Source: Siphonodentalium dalli (lineage: Eukaryota > Mollusca > Scaphopoda > Gadilida > Siphonodentaliidae). Taken from it: a stretch of DNA of 64,000 bases. Below, piece by piece: positions 6,036 to 63,563 of the stretch. A program made the translations under genes and the position numbers. Each line of letters begins with the position of its first letter. Position 1 is the first letter of the stretch. The notes beneath the pieces are model-generated. The model made no database searches and was not told the DNA's origin. It worked only from the letters and a program-made list of their open reading frames with translations. The DNA lies in NCBI GenBank assembly GCA_032622095.1, contig CP136064.1, positions 177,706,247 to 177,770,246 on the forward strand, read 5' to 3'.

Positions 6036-8280
6036 TTTTACTTTAAACATATTTTATTGTGAATTATTCAATTTACAAAGGGATTGGGGTACAAGTTACA
6101 GAAACTTACAAGACACCCCTCTCCCGATACAAAGTTGAAATTACAGTATTTGTTTACAAGATGACAGAGTGTTTACAATTGTGGTGTAATACATTGGGTA
6201 ACTGAAAATAAAGAAGATAAAGGTTATAATGGTAAGAGTGTGGACTGAGTGTGTTAATTGTCAACCGTCTCCCTGGATACACATGAAATGAGGACGGGCC
6301 AGGACGTCTATTTGTTTTACTTAATATGTTAATTTATATATCTGATGGTATATTTTCGGGCGATTAATCTTGTTTAAAGCGTGTTGTCGCAGCTATGAAT
6401 GACTGAACAATGCGAAATAATTTTATGTTTCTTTGAAAGGTTTCGTCAGGAATTCCCCTTAGCAGTTGGTTCCAGTTTGATATTCGGAAATTATGTTTCT
6501 CCAGTTTACAGTAAAGTACATGTCTCTGTTCGTCATATAATGGACAGAAAAGAAAGAAGTGCATGCCACTTTCGTATGCGTATCCACACTGACAATCTGG
6601 ACTATCGGCAATATAGTTTTCGTGCATGTCTAGTCGAAGATCGCTACATGAGTTACGTATCCTACAGTGTAGAATATTACTTTTCCGGTTTCCTGATTCA
6701 AAGTATTTGGGTGGTTTCGTGACTGGGTCAACAATATTTAAGTTTTCTTTGAAATCTTGCAGATTTTCAGCTGCAGTTACATACTTAGGGAGTTTGTTCC
6801 ACTCGGTCACGGTCGAGGGAAGGAAGGATTTTTTATAGTGTTCTGTAGAACAATAATATGAGTAGAACCTATCCGGGCATCGCATGGCATACCTTGACAT
6901 CTGGTATGAACGTGGCGGTAATAAACCAGTAAGGTAGTCTGGGGCTTTATTATTTATGATTTTAAATAGCATTTGTAATTTATGTTTCTCTCTGCGGTTT
7001 TTTAGTGTAGGCCAGCCTGCTTCACACAGGACGGAACTATTTGAGCATGAACGTGTGAGACCAGTTACAATTCTGGCGGCATCGATGTGAATTCGGTCCA
7101 GTTTCTTCAGAAGATAATCAGGGGCGTTTTCCCATACGACATCAGTGTAATCTAATATTGGTAGAATATAGGCCTTGTATAGTTTATCAAGTGTTCTTCT
7201 GTCTAGCTTATATTTATATTTTCTAAGGATTGACAGCCGAGGAGTAACTCTTGTGACGATAGACTCGATGTGCTTGTTCCAGTTTAAATTGCTTTGAATT
7301 TCAAGACCGAGATGTTTATGCGACTCGATGAGTTCCACTTTTTTGTTTTGAAAAAGGACATTTAAAGGCACATTATTGGGGGTCAGAGAGAACAGTATTG
7401 CTTTCGTTTTAATCGGATTGAAATTTACAAGCCATTTACGCGCCCATTCATCAATCTTAATTAGGTCTTCATTTATATTTCTTTCTAACAAATCAATATC
7501 ATAGTGCATCGCCGTGAGACAAGTATCATCAGCATACATTCTAGTGTCTGAGTTTAAATTTTCGGGTAGGTCGTTTATGTATACGAGGAATAGGAAGGGG
7601 CCGAGTATTGAGCCTTGAGGGACTCCAGCGGGGATAACTCTAAAGTTTGAACATGAGTCATTTATGAGAACTCTTTGTTTTCTATTAGTGAGGTAGTCTT
7701 CTATCCAGTTTAAAAGCGGTCCGGAAATACCATATTGTTTCAACTTATAAATCAGTCCCCTATGCCAGACTCTTTCAAAGGCCTTTGATATATCACAGAA
7801 TACAGAGCACGTGTAGAGGCCTTTATCTAGGGTCTGGCAGAGGTTGTGATATAAGTCTGTTAACTGAAAAGTCGTGCTATGTCCAGGCATAAAGCCAGAT
7901 TGATTGCTGTATAGTAATTTATTGTTTTGAAAGAATTCCATGAGATGTTGGATAATTATTTTCTCAAATATTTTACTAAGACTTGGGAGGAGAGATATTG
8001 GACGGTAATTTGTACATTCGGCAGGATCATCTTTTTTAAATATGGGAATCACATTGGCTTTTTTCCAATCAGATGGGAATTTCCCTTTTTGTAATGATTT
8101 TTTAAAGATAATTTCTAACGGGACTGCGATCGATTCGGCTGTTTCTTGAAGCATTTTAGGACTGATTCCATCAAAACCATGGAGATGTTTCCACTTCACT
8201 GCCTCTTGGCTTAGGTCGGGGTGTGGCTTAACAGAATGTGGTAATCGGCATATAGTCCAGTCATAATAACAAATATTGGA
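6036..8280 (-). mobile_element. 5'-truncated non-LTR retrotransposon (LINE)
   Basis: The element holds a reverse transcriptase frame (6364-8280) and about 320 bp of 3' UTR. The UTR includes gagaggggtgtcttgtaag / cttgtaccccaatccctt, which can pair as a hairpin, and an aataaaat signal near 6050. A similar hairpin follows the orphan frame at 31206-31703. The upstream endonuclease region expected of the Jockey/CR1-like group is absent: the frame meets an in-frame stop at 8281-8283 and the sequence beyond changes to a tandem array. The 3' end abuts the SINE-like remnant. Clean target duplications were not found by eye. Confidence 0.85.
6364..8199 (-). CDS. LINE ORF2 fragment: reverse transcriptase with C-terminal zinc knuckle
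   Basis: The frame is intact over 612 codons; the first codon here is GTG and the reading frame continues open to 8280, so the true N-terminus is lost. Residues 1-300 form a non-LTR reverse transcriptase, which copies element RNA into DNA at a nicked target. Visible motifs are GFDGISP (8-14), YRPISLLPSLSKIFEKII (65-82), FCDISKAF with the catalytic Asp (134-141), GVPQGSILGP (192-201) and YADD (222-225). A thumb and linker follow, with SxxxxWNKLP near 462-471. The last 110 residues carry a Cys/His module, C536-x-C538-x8-H547-x4-C552. A full ORF2 would also have an N-terminal AP-type endonuclease; none is present. No frameshift is evident in the part retained, suggesting a fairly recent insertion. 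The best family guess is the Jockey/CR1 group. Confidence 0.92.
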   Translation of the reverse strand: MKWKHLHGFDGISPKMLQETAESIAVPLEIIFKKSLQKGKFPSDWKKANVIPIFKKDDPAECTNYRPISLLPSLSKIFEKIIIQHLMEFFQNNKLLYSNQSGFMPGHSTTFQLTDLYHNLCQTLDKGLYTCSVFCDISKAFERVWHRGLIYKLKQYGISGPLLNWIEDYLTNRKQRVLINDSCSNFRVIPAGVPQGSILGPFLFLVYINDLPENLNSDTRMYADDTCLTAMHYDIDLLERNINEDLIKIDEWARKWLVNFNPIKTKAILFSLTPNNVPLNVLFQNKKVELIESHKHLGLEIQSNLNWNKHIESIVTRVTPRLSILRKYKYKLDRRTLDKLYKAYILPILDYTDVVWENAPDYLLKKLDRIHIDAARIVTGLTRSCSNSSVLCEAGWPTLKNRREKHKLQMLFKIINNKAPDYLTGLLPPRSYQMSRYAMRCPDRFYSYYCSTEHYKKSFLPSTVTEWNKLPKYVTAAENLQDFKENLNIVDPVTKPPKYFESGNRKSNILHCRIRNSCSDLRLDMHENYIADSPDCQCGYAYESGMHFFLFCPLYDEQRHVLYCKLEKHNFRISNWNQLLRGIPDETFQRNIKLFRIVQSFIAATTRFKQD

Positions 8281-17444: not shown

Positions 17445-17977
17445 AAATGGCCATGTATCGATCATGATGCCCCTCAACTCAGATCAAATGGCCATGTATC
17501 GAGCATGATGCCCCTCAACTCAGATCAAATGGCCATGTATCGATCATGATGCCCCTCAACTCAGATCAAATGGCCATGTATCGATCATGATGCCCCTCAA
17601 CTCAGATCAAATGGCCATGTATCGAGCATGATGCCCCTCAACTCAGATCAAATGGCCATGTATCGATCATGATGCCCCTCAACTCAGATCAAATGGCCAT
17701 GTATCGATCATGATGCCCCTCAACTCAGATCAAATGGCCATGTATCGAGCATGATGCCCCTCAACTCAGATCAAATGGCCATGTATCGAGCATGATGCCC
17801 CTCAACTCAGATCAAATGGCCATGTATCGAGCATGATGCCCCTCAACTCAGATCAAATGGCCATGTATCGAGCATGATGCCCCTCAACTCAGATCAAATG
17901 GCCATGTATCGAGCATGATGCCCCTTAACTCAGATCAAATGGCCATGTATCGATCATGATGCCCCTCAACTCAGATC
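17445..17977. repeat. 41-bp satellite, 13 copies
   Basis: The unit starts aaatggccatgtatcga and ends caactcagatc. It repeats exactly 13 times with no length change (13 x 41 = 533 bp). Apart from one T in copy 12 (cccttaact), the only variable site is GATC versus GAGC, in the order T G T T G T T G G G G G T. Flanks (ttcaaatgtgcatgcttcgg on the left, aagcttgaaaatcgg on the right) match the locus at 57293-57745, where only about one unit exists. No spacers are present, so this is not a CRISPR array. Confidence 0.97.
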
Positions 17978-18090
17978 AAGCTTGAAAATCGGTCCCGATT
18001 TTCGCCAATGTTGGGGTTGGATCCCGTGCCAAAATCGTCTAGCCCGCACCGCGGTGATCTTATCCACGACCTAATCACATCGGCTACGTA

Positions 18091-29444: not shown

Positions 29445-30215
29445 ATACGTAATGACATTAAACTCAAGAAAACCCGCGAAAACAAAACAAAATCACATTT
29501 AAGGTTTTAAGTTATTTCCTTCATAAAAAGAATCTTCGTGATAATGAACCCTCTCAATACTTTAGAATATAGAATTAACCTTAAAATAACAAAAACCTTC
29601 GGAACACAGAACCTTCGGAATAACGTACCTTCGGATTGGTGAACCTTCGGAATAGCGAATATTCAGAGAAATTTGGAATAGTGGACCTTCGGGATAGTGA
29701 ACCTTCGGAATAGAGACATGCCCCCCAATATTCATATTATATGCCCAGAGTTTAAAGGTATGGACCCATAAAATTCTAAACTTGGCCCTTAAAATATTGA
29801 ACTCCAAATTGGAGCCCACACAGAACATCACTTAAGTCAACTGTACCTGTGTCATGTCCCAATGCGGGAGGGTCCATATATACCACAACATTCATATTAT
29901 ATGTCAAGAATTCAACGGTATGGCCCACGCAATGACATTAAATATCAAGAAAACCCGCGAAAACAAAACAAATTCACATTTAATGTTCTAAGTTAAGTTA
30001 TTTCCTCCTGTATCTGTATCGGTATGCGCGCAGGATCAGTCCGGATGTGAGCGCACACTCCATAAAAAGAATCTTTGTGAAAATGAACCCTCTCAAATTA
30101 GTCTCAATACTTTAGAATATAGAATTAACCTAAAAATAACAAAAACCTTCGGAATAGAGAACCTTCGGAATAGCGGACCTTCGGGATAGCGAACCTTCAT
30201 AATAGAAACATGTCC
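29445..30215 (+). repeat. Local duplication, about 490 bp apart, with AACCTTCGGAATAG steps
   Basis: Blocks aagaaaacccgcgaaaacaa, ctttagaatatagaattaac and strings of aaccttcggaatag occur in the same order at 29460-29720 and 29945-30215. The short step alone recurs at least six times. The 89-codon minus-strand frame over it is read-through. Confidence 0.8.
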
Positions 30216-37687: not shown

Positions 37688-38697
37688 ATATTATCCGCCG
37701 TTCATACGCGTCGGAGGTTCTCATATGAACATTATTATCCGCCGGTCATACACGGGGGAGGTTCTCGTGGTCATACGCGGTGGAGGTTCTCATATTATCC
37801 GCTGGTCATATGCGGGGGAGGTTCTTATATTATTCGCCGGTCATACGTGGGGGAGGTCCTCATATTATCCGCCGGTCATTCGCAGGGGAGGTTCTTATAT
37901 GAACATATTATCCGCCGGTCATACTCGTGGGAGGTTCTCATATTATCCACTGGTCATACGCGTGGGAAATTCTCATATGAACATATTATCCGGCAGTCAT
38001 ACGCAGTGGAGGTTCTCATATTATCCGCCGGTCATAAGTGGGGGAGGTTCTCATATTATCCGCCGGTCATACGCGTGGGAGGTTCTCATATTATCTGCCG
38101 GTCATACGCGTGATAGGTTCTGATATGAACATATTATCCGCCGGTCATACGCGTGGGAGGTTCTCATATGAACATATTATCTGCCGGTCATACGCGGTGG
38201 AGGTTCTCATATTATCCGCCGGTCATACGCGGGGGAGGTTCTTATATTATTCGCCGGTCATACGCGGGGGAGGTCCTCATATTATTCGCCGGTCATACGC
38301 GTGGGAGGTTCTCATATTATCTGCCGGTCATACGCGTGAGAGGTTCTGATATGAACATATTATCCGCCGGTCATACGCGTGGGAGGTTCTCATATGAACA
38401 TATTATCAGCCGTTCATACGCGTCGGAGGTTCTCATATGAACATATTATCCGCCGGTCATATGCGGTGGAGGTTCTCATATTACCTGCTGGTCATACGCG
38501 TGTGAGGTTCTCATATGAACATATTATCTGCCGGTCATACGCGGTGGAGGTTCTCATATTATCCGCCGGTCATACGCGGGGAGGTTTTTATATTATTCGC
38601 CGGTCATACGCGGGGGAGGTCCTCATATTATTCGCCGGTCATACACGGGGGGAGGTTCTCATATTATCTGCTGGTCATATGCGGTGGAGGTTCTCAT
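37688..38697 (+). repeat. 35-bp satellite, forward arm
   Basis: The unit runs ggtcatacgcgggggaggtt and on to ctcatattatccgcc. Longer variants carry an extra tgaacat block. Roughly 27 units with point differences. Because 35 is not a multiple of three, each frame cycles through three 11-12-residue peptides, giving long open frames without stops; these are not genes. Confidence 0.95.
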
Positions 38698-39255
38698 ATG
38701 AGAACCTCACCCGCATTGACCGGCGGATAATATGAGAACCTCCCTCGCGTATGACTGGCGGATAATATGAACCTCCACCGCGTATAACCATCAGATAATA
38801 TGTTCATATGAGAATCTCCCCCGCGTATGACCGGCGGATAATATGTTCATATGAGAACCTCCCACGCGTATGACCGGCAGATAATATGAGAACCTCCCTC
38901 ACGTATGACCGGCGGATAATATGAGAACCTCCCCCGCATATGACCGGCGGATAACATGAGAACATCCACTGCGTATGACCGGGTGATAATATTTGAACCT
39001 CCCCTGCGTATGACCGGCAGATAATATAAGAACCACCGCTACGTTTGACCGGCGGATAATATGAGAACCTCCACCGCGTATGACCGGCGGATAATATGTT
39101 CATATCAGAACCTCCCACGCATATGACGGGCAGATATTGTGTTCATATGAGAACCCCCCCCCCGTGTATGACCAGCAGATAATATGTTCATATCAGAACC
39201 TCCCATGCGTATGACCGGCGGATAATATGAGAACCTCCCCGCGTATGACTGGTGG
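38698..39255 (-). repeat. 35-bp satellite, inverted arm
   Basis: The same unit on the opposite strand, about 14-15 copies. It joins the forward arm at a perfect 22-bp palindrome centred on cat|atg (38687-38708). Confidence 0.95.
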
Positions 39256-44010: not shown

Positions 44011-44450
44011 TAATGGAAAGCCTTTTTCACATGTATTAGCTAATTGCACATTAGCGTAAGTGAATTACAATTAAGCGTAATGTATTACACTCAGGTGTAA
44101 TGAACACATATAAAGCGTACTTCACTTACGCTTAACCGTATGATGTAGATAAAGCATTACTCCTATGAGTAATAGAATTATGACTAGTGTGCTTAAGCGT
44201 AATTGATTAAAGTGTGCTTAAGCGTAATTGATTTACGCTTAAGCTCACTGGTCATTTATTTTCATTGATAGATTAATTACACTTAATCATAAATGAATTA
44301 TGCTTAAGCGATTATACGAGAAGCCGTTTTCACATTTATTCTGATTCTGCTTAATCGCAAATCATTTACGCTTAAGTGTAAATCATTTGCACTTAAGAGC
44401 AAATCATTTATACTTAAATACAAATCATATGCGCTTTAGCGGAAATAGTA

Positions 44451-45285
44451 TGGGAGGCCCTTTTCACATTTATTATTTATTTGCGCTTAAGCGCAAATAT
44501 TTGTGCTTAAGCATAAATCATTAAGTGCAAATATTTGTGCTTAAGCGTAAATCATTTGCGCTTAAGCACAAATATGTGTCTATCAATTTATTTGCGCTTA
44601 AGCGCAAATACCTAACACTCCATTACATCCCTCTGATGTGAATGATTGAGTCCATCTCATATTATATTAGCATGGGCCCATAGTAATAGCCCCATACAGA
44701 CTCGAAGTTGAAGAAAAAACATATTTCCATATGCATATCAGCATCTCTGTCCCTGGTGTCCCAAGATTTGGTGCCTCACTCCCAGAGCTCATGTATATTT
44801 TATTATCTCCTGCACAGATATATACCATTTCCATGGCCATAAATAGGGAATTAGGGGTTACTGGGGTTTGCTTCCCTCATATGGTGTACTCATTGACTTG
44901 AAGTTGGGGAAAAACCCCTATTTTCATAATATCAGCATCCCTGTCCCCAAGAATTTGTGTCGCCATCCCAGAGATATAGTATATTTTATAAAAGAGACAT
45001 ATCCTACACAGATCTATATCATTTCCATGGTCATAAAACAGATCTTGGGGTTTCTGGGGGATTGTTTCCCTCATATGGTGGGGCTATATCAACTTTAGTG
45101 ATGTGTTTAGGCCTGTGCCATGTAAAATTAATTCAGGGGGGATCATTGCATATTGATTTTTATTTGCGCTTAAGTGCAAATGATTTGCGCTTAAGCGCAA
45201 ATATGATCTATTTGCTTAATTGCAAATGATAGAGGTTATTTGCGCTTAAGCGTAAATAAATAATAAATGTGAAAAGGGCCTCCCA
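44451..45285. mobile_element. TA-flanked CTTAAG element, 835 bp
   Basis: The left end tgggaggcccttttcacatt and its inverse at the right end are flanked by TA (44449-44450 and 45286-45287). Next to each end are cttaag palindromes. The centre carries a direct duplication of about 190 bp (about 44700-44885 and 44890-45080, both with tttccatggccataa-like and cttccctcatatgg-like text) that is unrelated to the palindromes, possibly captured sequence. Confidence 0.8.
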
Positions 45286-45727
45286 TATAATAGATCACAT
45301 TTATGGCAATTTTTATGCTAAAGCGCAAATATATTATTAGACACATATTTTTTACGCTTGAGCGCAATTGATTTACACTAATAAATAATATATTTGAAAA
45401 GGCTGTCTCCCATGCGATTTCCTCTAAACTCAAATTTACTCTGGCAATAAGACATCAATCAAACATCGGTTTAGACTCCCCCATATACTATGAGATGGAC
45501 TCAATTATTCAGACAGAGGAAATCAGTTGGAGTTAGGTATTTGCTTAAGCATTATTCATATTAATTATGCTTAAGTGTAAATGAGTTCCGCGCTTAAGCG
45601 TAAATGAAGTACGCTTAAACGTAATTCATATACACTCTCATTGAACTCCCCTCAAGCTGAAATGGATGCAACCGCATTACTAATGCCAGTAACCTACATC
45701 AGGTTATACCAATATACATGAGGTATA

Positions 45728-46072
45728 TGGGGAGCCAAATTAACATTTAATAAATAATAGAGCTTAAGCGATATAATTGAGCTTAAGCGATATAATAAGG
45801 GAAGATATAATTGCGATTAAGTTCAATAAGGAAATATCTAATTGCGCTTAGCACAATAAGGAATATCTTATTGCACTTAAGCACAAAAAGGAATATCGTA
45901 TTGCACTTAAGCGCAATAAGGAATCTCTAAGCGCAATAAGGAATCTTCTTATTGCACTTAAGCGCGATAAGAAATATTCTTATTGCACTTAAGTGTAATT
46001 AGAGATTCCTTGATTGGGGGGGGGGGGGCTTTAGCTCAATTATTTATTAAATGTTAATTTGGCTTCCTCCCA
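45728..46072. mobile_element. TA-flanked CTTAAG element, 345 bp
   Basis: Ends tggggagccaaattaacatt and its near inverse at 46030-46072 are flanked by TA (45726-45727 and 46073-46074). The core alternates gcacttaagcgcaataagg-like steps and ends with a 13-base G run (46016-46028). Confidence 0.78.
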
Positions 46073-46199
46073 TAGAGGTGAGATAGCTGATGAACCCAAT
46101 TACACTCAAGCGTAATTCAAATGTATTACGCTGATCGTAAGTTAATTATGCTTAAACATAAATAATTTATGCTTAAGTGTAATTAGCTACTATAAAGTG

Positions 46200-61565: not shown

Positions 61566-61778
61566 TAGTCTCGTTACGTACACATTTTATCTCTTGTAAC
61601 TTTTGCTTCAACGCGCCGAGTTCCGCTGCAGACAATACAAAACTGACAACATTTTGAAATGGCTACATCAGAGAGTTGTGCATAAGGTGTACTCGCATTT
61701 GTTGCGTTAAAACCAAAGTCCCAAGTCGAGGTCCAAAATCTCCAACACACTGATGTGAGGTTTAACTCCATATACATA

Positions 61779-61907
61779 CAGTAATGTCCAAAGTAATTGA
61801 CCACTTAACCACAGCAGAATTATGGGTAATTTTTCAGGATTTAAAATCCTGAAAAATTACCCATAATTCTGCTGTGGTTAAGTGGTCAATTACTTTGGGC
61901 ATTACTG
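61779..61907. mobile_element. Palindromic TA MITE, copy 1, 129 bp
   Basis: It begins cagtaatgtccaaagtaatt and is an almost perfect palindrome to cattactg, centred in ggatttaaaatcc. TA lies on both sides (61777-61778 and 61908-61909). Tc1/mariner-type by its target and CAGT ends; no coding capacity. Confidence 0.93.
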
Positions 61908-61954
61908 TAACCAATATAAGGATGTGAGGTTTAATGATAACTCAAATCCACATA

Positions 61955-62083
61955 CAGTAATGTCCAAAGTAATTGACCACTTAACCACAGCAGAATTATG
62001 GGTAATTTTTCAGGAATTTAAATCATGAAAAATTACCCATAATTTTACTGTGGTTAAATGGTCAATTACTTTGGGCATTACTG
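61955..62083. mobile_element. Palindromic TA MITE, copy 2, 129 bp
   Basis: Same length and ends as copy 1, TA at 61953-61954 and 62084-62085. It differs at a few sites in the centre and right arm (for example ttttactgtggttaaatgg). Because flanking units are also shared, it probably arose by duplication with its host unit rather than by an independent insertion. Confidence 0.93.
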
Positions 62084-62190
62084 TAACCAATATAAGGATG
62101 TGAGGTTTAATGATAACTCAATCCACATAACTAATATAAAGATGTGAGGTTTAATGAGAACTCCATCCACATAACTAATAAATATGTGTG

Positions 62191-62789: not shown

Positions 62790-63199
62790 AGGTCAGTCGC
62801 GCAAACATTGGAAGAGCCAGGGTCAATCATTTTTTTTTTAAACTAAATTTTACATTTAAATTATTACTTTATTTAACAACAACAAAAATTTAATGAGAAA
62901 ATTAACTTTACTACTTGCTAAATTTTATCTTTTAGTTATTTCATTTAAATTTTAGATTAAAATTTAAAAATATACAGTCCCAGTATGTACAGGGGGGTTG
63001 GTGCGTTATCAGAAAAAAAATCCAAATGGGTGCGTTGTATCACACTCCCGATAGCAAATATTTCCATTACCATGTATTTTTTCCCAAATCCATGTTTAAA
63101 GATAAATTATGACAAATAAACCAATTTTAAATGTCAAGGCTTAAGAAACTGGACCAAATAGATCATTAATCATTTAATTCAATTTAATCGGATATTTTA
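62790..63199. other. AT-rich non-coding stretch
   Basis: Runs of A and T dominate (about 62829-62960); no gene is seen. Confidence 0.4.
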
Positions 63200-63561
63200 C
63201 GGTGGCTGATTTAGGACATGGTATAAAGAAAAAAGCTCGCACGTTCGAACGCAAGAGCTCTTACGTTCGAACGTCCGAGCCCTTGTGTTCGAACGTGCGA
63301 GCCCTTACGTTCGAACGTGCGAGCTCTTGCGTTCGAATGTGCGAGCTCTTGCGTTCGAACGTGCACACAAGGGCTCGCACGTTTGAACGTAAGAGCTGGC
63401 ACATTCGAACGTAAGGGCTCGCACGTTCAAACGCAAGAGCTCGCACGTTCGAACGTAAGGGGTCGCACGTTCGAACGCAACGGCTCGCACGTTCGAACGT
63501 AAGAGCTCTTGCGTTCGAACGTAAGAGCTTTTTTTTTTACCATGTCCTAAACCAGCCACCG
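63200..63561. mobile_element. TA-flanked element packed with a 22-bp TTCGAA array
   Basis: The ends cggtggctgatttaggacat and, inverted, cggtggctggtttaggacat are flanked by TA (63198-63199 and 63562-63563). The interior has 13 palindromic cores TTCGAA (two altered to tttgaa and ttcaaa) at 63244, 63266, 63288, 63310, 63332, 63354, 63382, 63404, 63426, 63448, 63470, 63492 and 63514. The spacing is exactly 22 bp except one 28-bp step. Midway between most cores is a second palindrome-like core, gagctc or gggctc. All frames are open on both strands over the array, so overlapping 60-90-codon frames are artefacts. Non-autonomous; function of the array unknown. Confidence 0.9.
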
Positions 63562-63563
63562 TA

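Follow-up and report, generated by a model that had tools for sequence, protein, structure and literature searches.

The element and its array

The window, by which we mean the whole stretch of 64,000 nucleotides of Siphonodentalium dalli DNA that was analysed, contains at 63200-63561 an element of 362 bp that is bounded by TA on the left and on the right (Table 1). Its interior is called as an array of period 22 by Tandem Repeats Finder. The motif ACGTTCGAACGT, with up to two mismatches allowed, matches 13 times, all within 63241-63522, while 1.5 matches are expected and the highest count in 100 shuffles was five. Eleven of the TTCGAA-type cores are exact and two are one base off (TTTGAA, TTCAAA). 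The original prediction had described thirteen such cores at 22-bp steps with a single step of 28 bp, and the core positions bear this out, the steps being five of 22 bp, one of 28 bp and six of 22 bp. The GAGCTC-type cores expected about midway are likewise present, 11 bp along; those before the break read GAGCTC, GAGCCC, GAGCCC, GAGCTC and GAGCTC, ACACAA occupies this position at the break itself, and those after it read, in order, GAGCTG, GGGCTC, GAGCTC, GGGGTC, CGGCTC, GAGCTC and GAGCTT.

Table 1. Parts of the window element, in window positions
Feature	Position	Strand	Basis
Left TA (target-site duplication)	63198..63199	.	TA statistics across 42 copies
Left terminal inverted repeat, CGGTGGCTGATTTAGGACATGGTA followed by an A-rich stretch	63200..63232	+	Inverted-repeat match, genome-wide end counts
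Left arm, cores 1-6 at 22-bp steps	63234..63364	+	Core positions, linker polarity
TTCGAA-type core starts, left group	63244, 63266, 63288, 63310, 63332, 63354		
28-bp step between cores 6 and 7, fold centre, arm junction	63360..63381	.	Change of polarity from AG to GA, inverted arms
Right arm, cores 7-13 at 22-bp steps	63382..63531	-	Core positions, linker polarity
TTCGAA-type core starts, right group	63382, 63404, 63426, 63448, 63470, 63492, 63514		
Right terminal inverted repeat	63529..63561	-	Inverted-repeat match
Right TA (target-site duplication)	63562..63563	.	Flank reading

The 22-bp unit consists of two dyads, TTC/GAA and GAG/CTC, spaced 11 bp, and its polarity is set by two linkers, TTRCG on one side and CGTGC on the other. 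In the left arm core 1 is reversed and cores 2-6 have the AA-type linker (TTRCG) on their left and the GC-type linker (CGTGC) on their right; in the right arm cores 7-12 are reversed and core 13 has AA-type linkers on both sides.

The inverted ends with TA flanks that had been proposed are there: they extend over 35 nt including the TA (63198-63232 and 63529-63563) and are 91% complementary. Beyond the ends alone, and beyond what the original prediction had stated, the element is one long inverted repeat with arms of 141 nt (63224-63364 and 63399-63539) that are 91% complementary, the local arm match being 133 nt at 91.7%. The predicted DNA fold of 63198-63563 has an energy of -195.2 kcal/mol, compared with -65.6 +/- 4.1 for 100 dinucleotide shuffles (z -31.5).

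Other repeats in the window

Several other repeats were noted in the window. A minisatellite at 17445-17979 has 13 copies of a 41-bp unit with 98% matches. Two arrays of a 16-bp unit (AACCTTCGGAATAGAG), at 29588-29713 and 30144-30206, are each preceded by the same TTTAGAATATAGAATTAACCT stretch and are perhaps two copies of one element. An open frame of 638 aa lies at 6364-8280 on the minus strand, which we take by eye to encode the reverse transcriptase of a non-LTR retrotransposon. Nested near-perfect palindromes are found at 61777-62085, with 133-nt arms that are 95% complementary, each arm in turn forming an inverted repeat of 66 nt (98% for one arm, 91% for the other). A second large inverted tandem array, a 1.5-kb foldback of 35-bp repeats (GGTCATACGCGGGGGAGGTTCTCATATTATCCGCC), occupies 37744-39229 and reverses near 38700.

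At 44034-46192 there are nested elements with inverted ends (TGGGAGGCCCTTTTCACATTTATTA) beside TA and with subterminal CTTAAG palindromes. When these were searched for in the genome, the 40 scored of 604 candidates matched 74 bp at 100%, which points to their having expanded recently within a larger repeat. We considered these elements (family C, window 44-46 kb) as a third family with a two-turn period and rejected them, since their steps are irregular and the fetched loci represent one larger repeat with a near-equal layout.

Family A across the genome

The host genome comprises 2.23 Gb in nine contigs. A search of the assembly with the 24-bp end, as the original prediction had proposed, gave 634 + 654 sites with at most three mismatches, which belong to the family of the window element (family A) and to a sister family (family B); the reversed pattern of the 24-mer gave none in the genome at the same threshold. 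Ends of the A type, in which the end is followed by an A-run, number 99 + 111 = 210 with at most two mismatches, corresponding to about 105 copies of family A if each has two ends. We defined a complete copy as a pair of facing ends, each with at most five mismatches to the 24-mer, less than 1500 bp apart. The 48 complete copies were reduced to 42 distinct ones by dropping identical copies, the window's own repeats and locus L064; two further complete copies, L070 and L072, were fetched later and are not among the 42.

Of 60 stretches fetched around ends, 40 contain a complete pair and 20 do not, so that truncated and longer copies stand outside our counts. Of these 20, four belong to a single larger repeat that contains family-B sequence, and in L051 the end is followed by other sequence; the remainder are family-A copies that are longer, incomplete or disrupted, as read for those in which cores are few.

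The distinct copies span 124-1271 bp, contain 3-54 units each when mismatches are allowed, and complete copies lie on all nine contigs. TA is present on the left of 38, on the right of 40 and on both sides of 36 of the 42, with 0.7% expected for both sides. A typical copy consists of an end, left-arm units, a middle segment or junction, reversed right-arm units and the second end. The middle segment is of about 65 bp and has 33 matches in the genome, and the window copy is without it; L072 has two cores and, apart from its ends and the middle segment, little more than a single flanked palindrome. Among 676 units classified by their linkers, 270 have one polarity and 254 the other, 62 have GC-type and 60 AA-type linkers on both sides, and 30 are unclear.

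All 42 copies have both the ends and the same kind of array. The two therefore belong together and have spread as a unit, as had been suggested, and the array is neither peculiar to the window locus nor unrelated to its ends. Family A is short, with inverted ends, a target duplication and many dispersed copies, as is usual for MITEs, and from its repeat content it appears to be non-coding. It also has the long inverted arms of short tandem subrepeats, variable in number, of a foldback element; a target duplication of 8-10 bp, such as those of Tm1 and Tetris, is not seen, as the printed flanks (6 bases per side) share TA as a rule and no longer repeat. Arm identity exceeds that of the window copy in five of the other 41 copies, over 132 nt in L014 and over at most 77 nt in four, and in some copies (e.g. 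L006, L013 and L023) the arms are clearly unequal or one-sided.

The L014 locus (G000:C3:258150390-258151000) contains a perfect palindrome, outside which lies a further pair of ends, and L093, a family-B locus (G000:C1:225086300-225092300), is a 6-kb inverted duplication; either these are real inverted duplications or they are assembly artefacts.

A sister family with the same ends

Genome-wide, 188 + 226 ends match over about 23 bp and have no A-run; one of 100 such ends listed (C1:139885189) belongs to family A. All 16 family-B loci that were read (L093-L108) carry TTCGTGGCCACGAA units, with two mismatches allowed. Among the 86 steps shorter than 80 bp, 43 are of 22 bp and 32 of 21 bp; these are taken from L093-L108 together with L025 and L029-L032, loci that are partly non-independent, as L025 and L029-L032 share flanks within one larger repeat and L093 is an inverted duplication. 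Five of the eight family-B copies with both ends, L093 and L094 aside, are 0.97-1.11 kb long with arrays only near the ends. The three short copies are L099 (537 bp), L100 (298 bp) and L101 (153 bp), the last two being mostly array.

The most surprising result is that unrelated palindromes stand behind shared ends at a nearly equal period of two helical turns. Homology of the A and B units was considered and rejected, the best cyclic identity (10/22) being at chance level. Derivation of the units from the ends was likewise rejected, as their likeness in local alignment is also at chance (permutation P 0.97 for A and 0.49 for B).

Two long pairs of family-B ends, sought among the first 100 listed ends of each end search, were considered as autonomous copies, and neither looks autonomous. 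L093, with 5.9 kb between the ends, is a family-B element within the large inverted duplication, and two frames in it gave no Pfam match. L094 (G000:C1:117951450-117958230), with 6.7 kb between the ends, has long open frames that we presume, by eye, to be those of a non-LTR retrotransposon.

Spacing of the cores

Step statistics were taken from exact cores, as counts that tolerate mismatches contain false cores 8 and 14 bp apart. Of 530 such steps in family A, 361 are of 22 bp, and multiples of 22 account for 417 (79%). Off-phase steps, one or more, occur in 39 of the 42 copies, a figure that includes the arm junction, which contributes one or two such steps in many copies and in the window copy too; 22 of the 42 have at least two off-phase steps besides those of 26 bp, the step of the middle segment. 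The strict 22-bp phase that had been claimed thus holds for the window copy, apart from its one 28-bp step, and does not hold for the family.

Duplicate pairs of copies show how the spacing can change. The pair L023/L024 differs by two substitutions in 574 aligned bases and by array indels of 6 bp and 1 bp; the 6-bp indel turns a 22-bp step into one of 28 bp, and the 1-bp difference sits in a core. No small phase-changing indel was found in the alignable units of L058/L060 (four substitutions in 480 aligned bases), nor in those of the left part of the two L028 tandem copies. Units of the wrong length have been repeated unchanged, as in L054 (steps of 27, 27 and 27) and L049 (25 and 25), and in one copy of the L028 tandem pair the core is dead in six 22-bp units in a row (GGTGGA once, AGTGGA five times).

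Conservation of the two palindromes relative to the intervening bases had also been put forward as a check, and one result of it counts against strict selection: between intact linkers mismatches per base are 3.0% for TTCGAA (368 units) and 3.5% for GAGCYC (356 units, each scored as the distance to the nearest of three variants), so that the two are kept about equally. On the opposite side, the six TTCGAA positions are slightly better conserved than most others in 282 units with intact neighbours as anchors, a way of choosing units that is biased towards the core, and CpG is mutated in 3.8% of cases inside TTCGAA as against 7.9% for the flanking CpGs (303 units); both figures are weak because the units are not independent.

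The 22-bp spacing therefore seems to be mostly inherited and not guarded. Selection for strict phase, one of the two explanations originally offered, is unsupported in view of the 39 off-phase copies, the L023/L024 indels and the repeated wrong-length and dead-core units, while the other, a copying mechanism that conserves the unit, would largely account for the regularity. The proportion of multiples of 22 is nevertheless high given that units are only about 87% alike, which counts against a purely inherited spacing. Perfect phase in a single copy says little on selection before other copies are read.

How the arrays change

Units of the same polarity are almost as alike between copies (0.864) as between non-adjacent positions of one copy (0.869) or between neighbours (0.877), in a set of 502 polar units from 40 copies with two duplicate loci dropped; the value for neighbours was reached in 39 of 1000 shuffles of unit order. 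Because adjacent units are barely more alike than distant ones, slippage by one unit is not the main source of recent change. Exact matches of at least 55 bp are shared by 9.6% of 666 pairs of copies, compared with 0.1% after shuffling of 22-bp pieces (37 copies, those of at most 200 bp and duplicates being dropped). Together, the sharing of blocks and the weak adjacency mark the arrays as old mixtures of variant units, reshuffled block by block, with an occasional recent one-unit expansion. The self-complementarity of the units would favour both unequal exchange and template switching, and these are the processes presumed to reshape the arrays.

Target site and transposase

A preference for TA as target points to the Tc1/mariner-pogo group of transposases, and the TA duplication typical of that group is present on both sides of 36 of the 42 copies. 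The genome holds DDE_3 and DDE_1 transposases. A transposase with the same ends, which the original prediction had named as something to look for, was not found in the 32 loci read out of 240 matches (20 of 90 for DDE_3 and 12 of 150 for DDE_1), each covered for about 1.2-1.7 kb on either side and further for three, so that ends farther out would be missed. The loci read have other ends or none that could be made out; the best likeness to the end was 16 of 24 bases at the DDE_3 loci and 17 of 24 at the DDE_1 loci; the latter, in L128, was rejected as a terminus and is an internal subterminal repeat instead. The PF01359 profile has no match in the genome and has none in the controls either, so that absence is not implied.

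The 32 loci having yielded no transposase with such ends, we only infer the class and the mobilization in trans: families A and B would be moved, or would have been moved, by one transposase that recognizes TACGGTGGCTGGTTTAGGACATG, and by its TA preference this transposase is probably of the Tc1/mariner-pogo group. The two DDE_1 families in which subterminal repeats were sought, represented by L128/L129 and by L130, have short direct ones 20 bp apart, and such repeats thus also occur in transposase-bearing elements of this genome. Open frames of 725 and 611 aa (L128 1032-3206 and L130 921-2753 (-)) contain DDE_1 and a Psq-type helix-turn-helix; in L128 there are also weak C-terminal matches to PHD/C1-like fingers, below the cut-offs.

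Empty sites were looked for by comparing 55 joined pairs of flanks with the fetched loci and the window. The joined flanks of L009, L013, L018 and L020 each align with a different locus over the join, with 68-78% identity, and the alignments are gapped there or close by, so that they do not show the exact target duplication. Other matches across the join, among those listed, do not represent empty sites: L014 has nested ends in a perfect palindrome, L006/L041 reflects a tandem repeat and L039 matches itself.

Discussion

The reading that we prefer, with a probability of about three in four (0.74), is that the window element belongs to a family of non-autonomous TA-inserting elements moved in trans, the regularity of which comes from the copying of units and blocks without strict selection on spacing. 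Such an element, of MITE or foldback type, would move by cut and paste. Its arrays would grow and change by the copying of whole units or blocks, through slippage, unequal exchange and hairpin-primed template switching between self-complementary units, and transposition would carry whole arrays along and so spread the 22-bp regularity, which would owe its existence to these two processes with no strict selection needed to maintain it. The dyads would allow every unit and, in the window copy, nearly the whole element to fold back on itself, and it is this folding that probably drives the rearrangement of blocks and the switches of polarity. The 42 complete arrays, with their 3-54 units, polarities, phase slips and duplicates, represent a natural series on the growth of tandem palindromes in mobile elements.

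The alternative that survives best is that the units form a phased protein platform, in which dyads two helical turns apart would bind a dimeric protein (a second DNA-binding domain of the transposase or a host factor) and selection for mobility would favour palindromes that are in phase. A role of this kind, which the original prediction had suggested, is possible for the family-A units, and we regard it as unlikely. The idea is kept because family B, its main support, has the same ends with another palindrome at 21-22 bp. The irregular steps of family C, also present in the window, count against it. At least three units are present in all 42 complete copies of family A, but L072, outside that set, has two cores. 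Phase is kept in two of the three duplicate pairs and has shifted in the third at only two substitutions; off-phase and dead-core units have nonetheless been repeated, and TTCGAA is not markedly better conserved than GAGCYC. Direct subterminal repeats 20 bp apart occur in two DDE_1 families that bear a transposase, and secondary transposase sites in tandem repeats of the TIRs have been described for Galileo (PMC3573991), but the family-A and family-B units are unlike their ends, and one usual sign of such secondary sites is thereby gone.

A broader form of this idea, less probable still, is that a palindromic unit every two helical turns is a working transposon module, filled independently with unrelated sequences (TTCGAA/GAGCTC in A and TTCGTGGCCACGAA in B) in families that share one transposase. 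The machinery would then read geometry and not sequence, either through cruciform-prone DNA or through a dimeric protein bound along a single helical face. With this pair of families one could test whether the period of subterminal repeats, as opposed to their sequence, matters to a transposase or to hairpin geometry.

It is very improbable that the element serves as a source of hairpin RNA, in which a transcribed palindrome would give long double-stranded RNA and a repeat of about the Dicer step would yield one abundant putative small RNA whatever the register, so that the element would be protected or tamed. The period of 22 is close to the length of small RNAs, and the window copy is predicted to fold almost perfectly from end to end, albeit as DNA (z -31.5); most copies, however, have poorer arm matches than this one, and the arrays of the five family-B copies of about 1 kb, being confined to the neighbourhood of the ends, would give a poorer hairpin. 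An ordinary minisatellite that arose by chance between unrelated inverted ends, to which the period-22 call of Tandem Repeats Finder might point, is refuted by the 42 complete copies on nine contigs, every one of which has the same ends around an array of the same kind.

The preferred reading, a non-autonomous element with copied arrays, places family A among known kinds of transposon. Its architecture is of the foldback type (as in Tm1, Tetris and Galileo), its size and dependence are those of a MITE with a tandem repeat, and it is a variant within these kinds. Long inverted arms of short tandem subrepeats, as in family A, are also those of the foldback elements FB and TU, whose target duplications are of 8-9 bp. 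A text search of the published literature with the end and unit sequences found no paper.

The Tm1 elements of root-knot nematodes, a Mutator/Foldback family, are described as having a short outer motif followed by a variable number of 13-15 bp tandem repeats, with MITE-like members, unequal arms and two TIRs per element that are about 93% alike (PMC3169594). Family A resembles them in its composite terminal inverted repeats, variable repeat number, MITE-like form and unequal arms; it differs in that Tm1 has target duplications of 8-10 bp (mostly 9) and a Mutator-type transposase where family A has TA, and in that the Tm1 repeat consensus as printed is by eye non-palindromic, whereas the family-A unit has two dyads 11 bp apart (PMC3169594).

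In Tetris, a foldback element of Drosophila virilis with tandem repeats in its TIRs, only the final portions of the TIRs are common to another non-autonomous element, DAIBAM (PMC4079207). Families A and B similarly share only their ends, and an autonomous partner was found in neither case, for family A among the 32 loci read. Tetris has repeats of about 220 bp and target duplications of 8-10 bp, in contrast to units of 22 bp and TA in family A, and its TIR-220 repeats have 37 bp in common with the end domain (PMC4079207), whereas family-A units are unlike the ends. Galileo, of the P superfamily in Drosophila, is similar in that its two TIRs gain and lose internal tandem repeats independently of each other and so vary in length, and in showing chimeras and exchange between copies; its F subfamily has repeats of about 210 bp, compared with 22 bp here, and the transposase of its superfamily is known (PMC3573991). 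A unit resembling an end-binding motif, as in Galileo, is not seen in family A, where the alignment is at chance.

Also comparable are the MITEs that carry and spread a tandem repeat in Xenopus, miDNA4 in X. tropicalis, listed as a Tc1-mariner MITE, and Xmix/Xstir in X. laevis; for these the comparison is with their description in a review, whose passages on them do not describe two-dyad palindromic units in inverted arms (PMC9659126). Relative to Tm1 and Tetris, what sets family A apart is the TA in place of target duplications of 8-10 bp, together with units that are doubly palindromic.
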